From Harmothoe impar (taxonomy: Eukaryota > Annelida > Polychaeta > Phyllodocida > Polynoidae), in NCBI GenBank assembly GCA_947462335.1, contig OX381721.1, positions 10,181,910-10,245,909 of the forward strand: DNA of 64,000 nt, in the 5' to 3' direction. The notes below the pieces were generated by a model. It was not told where the DNA came from, ran no database searches, and saw only the letters and a list, made by a program, of their open reading frames with translations. The translations under genes were made by a program, and so were the position numbers. Positions 54,281 through 55,855 of this stretch are shown piece by piece (within the stretch, counting starts at the first letter, position 1; each line of letters begins with the position of its first letter).

Positions 54281-54746
54281 ATGAGCAAAACACAACAACT
54301 ACTGTCGTCCAAGGATCTAATCGAGTTCAAGAACAAGAAGAATACGCAGAACGGTGATCGTTTACTGTCAGCGTCTCCTCTTGCTACTGAAATTGAGACT
54401 ACCGCCGCAACCGCTTGGTCTTATCACCCTCCCGCTGTAGCGAGCGCACACAGCAGTAGTAGCGACGTTGTTACACTCGCGACGGTTGTTGCTGCTGAGC
54501 ACGCTGCTGCTGCTACTGCTGCGCCTGCTGCGGCTGCTAGTGATCCTCGTGCTGCTAGTGCTGCTGCTACTGCTGCTGCTGCTGCTGTTGCTGCTGCCGC
54601 GCCTGTTACTGCTGTGCCTGCTGCTGCTGCTGCTGCTGCTGCTGCCGCGCCTGTTACTGCTGCGCTTGCTGAGGCGGCTGTGCTTGCTGCTGCTGTGCCT
54701 GCTACTGCTGCGCCTGCTACTGCTGCACTTGCTAGCGCTGCGCTTG

Positions 54747-54796
<50 letters not shown>

Positions 54797-55855
54797 GCTA
54801 CACCTCTTGCTGCGACTACCGCTACTAGTACTGACACGCAGTACGTTGCACAGAACCTCTCCACCGCTTCATCAACCGACGCCATCAACGCTGCTCGCGC
54901 TGAGACTTACAGCTATTCGGACACTCAGCCCCAGCAGCGCGTAGTAGACATACATGTCCTAAAGCAACAGGGTGAAACAGAGAACGACGCTGACGACGAG
55001 GCGTACGAGGAACCCGAAGGGTCACGGGCGCACAGTCCGTTTTTCGACCTCATTTCCACTGGTAGTGCGTCCGGTCCGTGGCGACTGCCCTCACCAATAC
55101 CTTACGAAGTCATGTGGTTGCCCTGTTCCGACAACGAGTCGTCTGATACCAGCGCAGACGCTGCTCCTGTTATTGGTTCTGCTGCAGTAGTACCTGTATC
55201 ATCATACTTCAAAGCAGAGCCGTTAGGATACTTGTCAGACGCTATGCTACTGAAAATAAGTGGTAAGTTGCCGACATCAGATTACATACGGTTAGGTTCA
55301 TTCCTTGAAGTGAACTTGAAGGATATGGGATATCTCAGTTGTGAGACAAGTGTCATAACTCAAGCTAGAGAAATGTTCACTACTTGGTACCAGAAAAGTT
55401 GTACTAGTAGGTGGAAGGACCTAGCCGCCGCCTTGGAAGAATCTTACCGTATGGACCTCATCAAATTCTCACGTGAGTACATGGACAAGCATGACATGTG
55501 GGATGGCTTAGAGAGTGGAGACATGGAGTGGAAAGTGCAGAAATATTTCTCTCTTTTAGCTGAGCTCTGCCCTAGAGACTGGAAGACCATAGGGATCTAC
55601 TTAGGGTTGACTTCTCATGAAGTAACTTCCATCTCTCAACCTGTGCCTTCTGACAGGACTGTGAAGAACCCTGTCTATGAAGTGCTGAAAGCTTGGAAGT
55701 ACAACGAGACGTCTGAGCCTATGGCTCTGATGAAAGTGTTGGAAGACTACATGGGACGCGGCGACGTCGCAATGTATGTTCAAGGGTTGTATGCAGCTGT
55801 ACCCAAAGAAATAAAAGTGAGCTGTGACACTCCAGTGTTGACGACTCTCGTCTGA
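54281..55855 (+). CDS. alanine-rich protein with two C-terminal Death-domain-like modules
   Basis: 524 residues; the start is ATG 54281 in strong context (CACCACCATGA). Layout: polar N-terminus (1-60); alanine-rich tract coded almost wholly by GCT/GCG (about 62-185); acidic stretch near 233 (DADDEAYEE); Ser/Pro linker; Death-like module 1 (about 318-405) with WKDLAAALEES and DLIKFSREYMDK; module 2 (about 416-505) with the clearer signature DWKTIGIYLGLTSHEV, VYEVLKAWKYNE and ALMKVLEDYMGRGDVAMYV. The W..I...LGL..(H/D)(E/D)V pattern, the L..W helix and the L...L....R.D(V/L)A helix in that order and spacing are the Death-domain fold pattern. Death domains join cell-death and NF-kB signalling complexes. 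Probably captured from a host gene; cell-death modulation is inference. The opposite-strand alanine frame is a shadow. Confidence 0.8.

Follow-up and report, generated by a model that had tools for sequence, protein, structure and literature searches.

What does a tandem Death-domain gene do inside a small mobile element that appears to be a copy without replication machinery of its own? The question is raised by a window of 64,000 nucleotides (the whole stretch of DNA analysed here) from the polynoid annelid Harmothoe impar, contig OX381721.1, positions 10,181,910 to 10,245,909. The window contains what is very probably a Maverick/Polinton-type element, at 50086-59932 of the window. A gene for a protein with two Death modules lies at its centre, and a second gene, encoding a putative Cullin 5 (Cul5) adaptor, lies in each of two inverted arms. 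The boundaries of the element are as follows.

50086..59932: whole element, 9,847 bp, probable non-autonomous Maverick/Polinton type, on the basis of termini, inverted repeats, 6-bp duplication and CpG observed/expected ratio
50086..50171, forward strand: left terminal inverted repeat, 86 bp, equal to the right repeat at 83 of 86 aligned positions
59847..59932, reverse strand: right terminal inverted repeat, 86 bp
50080..50085: ATCACT, 6 bp, the duplicated target site on the left, identical to 59933-59938
59933..59938: ATCACT, the duplicated target site on the right

The preliminary description of this DNA had spoken of a virus-like, Polinton-type element, and the ends agree with that. The termini read exactly AGTAGT...ACTACT, ATCACT abuts both outer sides, and among the duplication lengths tried (3-12) only length 6 gives a match. 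According to the extract of PMC8097293, (AGT)2//(ACT)2 is the most frequent end motif of vertebrate Mavericks, which make 6-bp duplications, the alternative motif described for vertebrates being (AG)3//(CT)3; a 6-bp duplication is likewise given for Polintons in the extract of PMC10045372. The element thus has the terminal inverted repeats, the end motif (that of vertebrate Mavericks) and the 6-bp duplication of the group. Its composition also stands apart. The CpG observed/expected ratio is 0.79 vs. 0.49 in the remaining window and exceeds that of all 81 equal-length sliding windows on its left (maximum 0.58), which fits a fairly recent insertion, and the GC content is 0.468 vs. 0.413. Exact matches were found neither for the first 27 bases of the element in viral contigs nor for the first 24 in genome contigs. 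Plasmids gave no megablast match to 50086-54000, the sole stretch queried, and Rfam at gathering scores and a tRNA scan returned nothing.

The earlier reading has to be corrected in one respect: the copy cannot so far be called a coding virus. Pfam was run on 23 of the 24 stop-to-stop open segments of at least 80 amino acids in the element, with the Death frame entered from its ATG and a poly-leucine frame (54441-54944) omitted. Death is the only family above its cut-off in this set, in which no integrase, ATPase, protease, major or minor capsid protein or polymerase was recognised. With none of these recognised in the segments scanned, the 9.8-kb copy looks non-autonomous and is filed as a non-autonomous derivative rather than as a complete Maverick. 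One stretch may be what is left of a core gene.

56001..57110, forward strand: broken stretch, candidate relic of a protein-primed DNA polymerase, by likeness of motifs, with no profile match

This stretch has 16, 21 and 10 stops in its three forward frames and opens with a cysteine-bearing piece, MPQDVCEKC. Two pieces, 56232-56549 and 56981-57103, may show motifs of protein-primed polymerases, one from the exonuclease region and one from further along. Pfam, PHROGs, PDB and the viral contigs lend no support to a polymerase identity, and the 56232-56549 piece has no relative among the viral contigs. Two polymerase DNA patterns matched 0 and 2 contigs, and the matches, in L001 and L002, run antisense to long frames and were set aside as chance. 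Possibly the stretch is a relic of a protein-primed polymerase B gene; given the lack of library support, it stays a lead.

The Death-domain gene itself is laid out in this way.

54281..55855, forward strand: Death-domain protein gene, 524 codons, frame uninterrupted
54215..54220, forward strand: TATA box of the Death gene, TATATA
54461..54880, forward strand: alanine-rich tract, residues 61-200, GCT repeats, repeat family D1
55253..55477, forward strand: Death module 1, residues 325-399, PF00531 20.3 bits alone
55541..55780, forward strand: Death module 2, residues 421-500, best PF00531 stretch, 29.6 bits alone
53098..53664: tandem pair of a repeat of about 280 bp, 5' of the Death gene, 93% identical, families D4 and D7
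53814..54171: tandem pair of a 180-bp repeat, close 5' of the Death gene promoter, 80.5% identical

The preliminary description had predicted a tandem Death-domain protein from this frame and had proposed a PF00531 profile search as a check. The prediction was borne out: in Pfam-A the whole protein matches PF00531 twice, with E 1.2e-10 and 41.8 bits against a cut-off of 22.6, and no other family at E <=10. Both modules match in tandem, and module 2 alone exceeds the cut-off (E 7.5e-7). Taken alone, module 1 falls just below it (E 6.3e-4), and it scores 18.6 bits within a longer piece, 55100-55564. The reversed protein and four shuffles (five of the seven constructed controls were scanned) give no Death match. 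The two modules occupy the C-terminal half of the protein, behind a long N-terminal half of low complexity in which alanine makes up 76 of the 140 residues from 61 to 200. The non-repetitive part of the frame, about 334 codons, is longer than any frame that arose when this stretch was shuffled 2,000 times (maximum 233). The start codon stands in a strong context, and the splice-acceptor-like CTCTACAG lies immediately 5' of the ATG; an intron may thus lie within the 5' untranslated part of the gene.

The predicted structure of module 2 has six helices at low confidence (predicted local distance difference test score, pLDDT, 54), and its top fold matches are Death domains, weakly; a joint model of both modules reached pLDDT 37 and was not used, and a search of viral structures gave no significant match. 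A sequence search of PDB returned seven matches, including FADD, RIPK1 and PIDD, at non-significant E values of 0.25-1.6. BLASTP of module 1 against module 2 yields a best piece of 9 residues (E 0.058); this is no meaningful similarity and lends no support to a recent internal duplication. The C-terminal 251 residues have no relative among the viral contigs. A phage tblastn with them gave two records of one phage at E 0.4, which were rejected.

On either side of the Death gene the element carries an inverted arm with a copy of a second gene.

50718..52782, reverse strand: left inverted arm with one arm-gene copy
57088..58586, forward strand: right inverted arm with the other arm-gene copy
51598..52380, reverse strand: left arm-gene copy, 260 amino acids, MSPRKKKQ..., BC-box and Cul5-box consensus at residues 180-218 (51727-51843)
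57443..58225, forward strand: right arm-gene copy, 260 amino acids, MSPRKKKQ..., BC-box and Cul5-box consensus at residues 180-218 (57980-58096)

The arms are imperfect, with BLAST blocks 86-91% identical in opposite orientation. Both arm-gene frames are open; 231 of 258 aligned residues are equal, and the coding part of the alignment has gaps of only 1, 1 and 2 residues. In aligned codons the copies differ at 45 of 774 nucleotides, vs. 24 of 141 and 19 of 95 in the adjoining outside stretches, and the farther arm blocks are 9% divergent. The ratio of nonsynonymous to synonymous substitution rates (dN/dS) is 0.56, the other two frames giving 0.64 and 0.77. When 45 changes were placed at random 1,000 times, a stop arose in 86% of placements, and the identity actually seen falls right on the 97.5th percentile. 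Taken together, the dN/dS value, the random placements and the percentile make selective constraint on the arm gene likely, if modest.

Both copies carry TLQSSCVSVI...VDTLPLPELMMNMI and agree at each specified position, in order, with the BC-box and Cul5-box consensus given in the extract of PMC13342108; which residues count as hydrophobic, and the permitted spacing of 0-35 residues, were defined in this analysis. The window has 766 open segments that are 40 or more amino acids long, and two of them, namely the two arm-gene copies, contain the pattern; when the right copy was shuffled 300,000 times, it arose in 15 cases, and an earlier, differently drawn pattern was met in 3 of 200,000 shuffles. 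Pfam had already flagged the site when the two patterns were composed, and each tolerates as many as 35 residues between the boxes. The Pfam family SOCS_box matches the whole left-copy frame at E 0.34 and the right protein as a whole not at all. Pieces of 57 residues, picked after the whole-frame match, score 14.9 bits on the left and 14.7 bits on the right, at E values of 0.032-0.038, under the cut-off of 23.5. With this score the arm protein is called a putative Cul5 adaptor and not a member of the SOCS-box family. A search of PDB sequences with it gave no hit at E <=10, and 57350-58222 has no relative among the viral contigs.

A GCTGCT-rich repeat array lies 3' of the left arm gene (51199-51567) and resembles in composition the one found within the Death gene. 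A Gln/Ala-rich frame on the reverse strand, 51187-51498, matched adenovirus protein IX at 19.7 bits (cut-off 27; E 0.0011), which was ascribed to composition, with no control run. Other weak Pfam and library matches to unrelated families were under cut-off or not significant.

The ends of the element carry arrays of motifs that serve as sites for host factors.

50212..50416: left subterminal array with ETS (ACCGGAAGT) and E-box (TCACGTGA) motifs, repeat family D6
59386..59870: right subterminal array with ETS, cAMP response element (CRE, TGACGTCA), CCAAT and E-box motifs and three ETS+CArG composites (59645, 59690, 59802)

At 50086-50460 there are 3 ETS and 6 E-box sites, vs. means of 0.007 and 0.003 in 300 shuffles, and at 59340-59932 there are 8 ETS, 7 CRE, 4 CCAAT, 3 CArG and 2 E-box sites, vs. 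means of 0.01-0.04 (n = 300); in both end regions the means for each of the five motifs stay at or below 0.05. The array motifs are repeats, and the site counts are therefore not independent events. Counted over the window, the element holds 11 of 12 ETS sites, 9 of 10 E-box sites (one within the Death frame), 7 of 12 CRE sites, 4 of 7 CArG boxes and 6 of 9 CCAAT variants, and all three ETS+CArG composites stand in the right array. AP-1 (3 of 10), NF-kB (0 of 19) and the p53 half-site (3 of 15) are less concentrated there. The 23-base ETS-CArG composite has no exact match in the viral contigs. The two ends differ, E-box and ETS on the left and CRE, ETS and CArG on the right, as though separately controlled. 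Through these arrays, growth- or stress-responsive factors would probably exert enhancer or origin-associated control.

How might these parts work together? All functional steps of the scheme that follows are ones that we infer. The polymerase and integrase of an autonomous helper Maverick would act in trans on the terminal repeats, and the element itself would contribute the ends and the accessory genes. Host growth- and stress-responsive transcription factors would switch the element on through the ETS, CRE, CArG, E-box and CCAAT arrays. The tandem Death protein would bind Death-domain adaptors or receptors of the host and cap or divert their helical assembly, so that the cell stays alive and quiet for as long as copying of the element goes on. 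The arm protein would recruit Elongin BC and Cullin 5, so that a host factor is marked for degradation. We assume, with slight leaning in its favour, that the Death gene has a counter-defence role; for the whole scheme, a helper-dependent Maverick/Polinton with the Death decoy and the Cul5-adaptor genes as accessory counter-defence, the case is evenly balanced, and that the Death protein is overall a decoy and not an activator falls a little short of that balance.

There are viral precedents for both kinds of protein. MC159, a viral FLIP (v-FLIP) with two death effector domains, inhibits Fas- and TNFR-mediated apoptosis (PMC5707523, in extract). Viral cullin adaptors include Vif, adenovirus E4orf6, Gam1 and BZLF1 (PMC4812663, in extract), and MGF505-1R of African swine fever virus is a further one (PMC13342108, in extract).

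A bolder version is offered only tentatively, as rather doubtful. The Maverick system would consist of two parts, and this element, small and dependent on a helper, would be a dedicated counter-defence cassette. It would have given up its replication genes and be maintained by selection on the element, the polymerase relic decaying within. The layout would suit such a cassette, with the Death decoy in the centre, a Cul5-adaptor gene in both arms and enhancers resembling those of immediate-early genes at the ends. Poxviruses keep immune genes in their terminal repeats.

Several results weigh against the proposed working: the SOCS_box scores under the cut-off, the stops that fill 56001-57110 beside the Death gene, the modest constraint on the arm gene, and the Maverick core genes that went unrecognised in the segments scanned. 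The second and third of these suit a passive passenger, that is, a decayed Maverick copy with an accessory gene whose Death frame is open by youth, unexpressed and unselected. The CpG ratio, still high and in keeping with a recent insertion, and terminal repeats that differ at just 3 of 86 positions fit it too. It has to reckon, however, with a Death gene and two arm genes that are open while other stretches of the element are broken, with the promoter-like features 5' of the Death gene, and with arm coding parts that diverge less than the adjoining outside stretches. We regard this explanation as unlikely, though it survives best among the alternatives.

The Death protein could also act in the opposite sense and nucleate host death complexes, as a toxin-like, anti-rival or host-defence device. 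Death domains can nucleate as well as block assemblies, and Polinton-like viruses are reported as antiviral systems in protists (PMC12220804, in extract). However, Pfam finds no further module in the protein, so that no enzymatic effector is seen, and the viral precedent considered here for tandem death-fold domains, v-FLIP, is inhibitory (PMC5707523, in extract). A pro-death or sensor function is accordingly judged improbable.

Very improbable is another DNA transposon or foldback element with 6-bp duplications, or a chance palindrome. The large internal inverted arms do recall foldback elements, no core gene was recognised in the segments scanned, and IS3EU and GingerRoot likewise make 6-bp duplications (PMC10045372, in extract). 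The ends speak against it: AGTAGT...ACTACT are the commonest ends of vertebrate Mavericks, unlike TA..TA in IS3EU, mainly TA..TA and at times TG..CA in GingerRoot (PMC10045372, in extract), and TGTNR in Ginger2 (PMC2836005, in extract). Finally, a host Death-domain gene that just happens to have a repeat on each side, no element being present, is barely credible: animal genomes do hold Death-domain genes, often with several death-fold modules, but here exact terminal repeats and a target duplication bracket the gene, GC and CpG are set off from the remaining window, and the Death coding frame has no intron.

The element that we favour, a helper-dependent Maverick with accessory genes, can be placed beside known systems. 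With the vertebrate Mavericks described in the extract of PMC8097293 it has in common the (AGT)2//(ACT)2 ends, the 6-bp duplication, terminal repeats whose 86 bp fall within the range of 46-1,447 bp, and accessory open reading frames, which in most intact vertebrate elements flank the core. It differs in that no core gene was recognised, in its 9.8 kb vs. 12.7-24.6 kb for intact elements, and in the long inverted arms inside it, which hold a gene in duplicate. Like the Death protein, MC159 comes with two tandem death-fold domains, and from a DNA virus (PMC5707523, in extract). The v-FLIPs, whether MC159 or those of gamma-herpesviruses, have death effector domains according to the source extract, whereas the modules here belong to the Death family (PF00531 alone at E <=10) and stand behind an alanine-rich region; the protein is thus not a v-FLIP, although by analogy it may work like one. 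With FADD, RIPK1 and PIDD of hosts it has in common the tryptophan and hydrophobic pattern of the Death fold, at no significant pairwise similarity; the domains are in tandem here, and Pfam found no kinase, death effector or leucine-rich repeat module. The arm protein resembles the viral cullin and Elongin BC adaptors of the extracts cited above in being encoded by a mobile or viral genome with a BC-box and/or cullin box. No sequence relation to Vif, E4orf6, Gam1, BZLF1 or MGF505-1R was demonstrated, and the gene is present in two copies on the arms of a mobile element.

Elsewhere in the window there are a reverse transcriptase fragment at 39155-40186 (PF00078, E 7.5e-18 for 39239-40183), an exon of the dual oxidase maturation factor DuoxA, a family that marks animals, at 16392-16736 (E 3.2e-14), an inverted repeat at 63597-63906 with arms of 149 bp, 92% complementary and 12 bp apart, and a tandem array at 33359-33905 with a period of about 72 bp.

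The preliminary description knew of no Polinton-type element with a tandem Death-domain protein, and the literature searched, which omitted the main adintovirus paper, contains no such report either. In it, no work links Maverick transposable elements with the Death domain (a single co-mention is unrelated), adintovirus together with apoptosis gave only birnavirus work, and no phrase for non-autonomous Polintons or Mavericks was found. Adintoviruses can carry apoptosis-related accessory genes; with this, and with the main adintovirus paper lying outside the search, the claim of novelty is a limited one. What is new here, as read from the sequence, is an open second gene with the BC-box and Cul5-box consensus in each inverted arm.

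Mavericks are regarded as a link that joins transposons to DNA viruses, yet to our knowledge little is known of how they handle the defences of animal cells. The present locus offers concrete candidate binding partners, namely Death-domain adaptors for one protein and Elongin C/Cul5 for the other. If the proposed working is true, the Death protein would be a death-fold decoy distinct in type from the v-FLIPs and their death effector domains, and apoptosis or innate-immune signalling, together with protein degradation, would be fronts on which Mavericks and their hosts meet.
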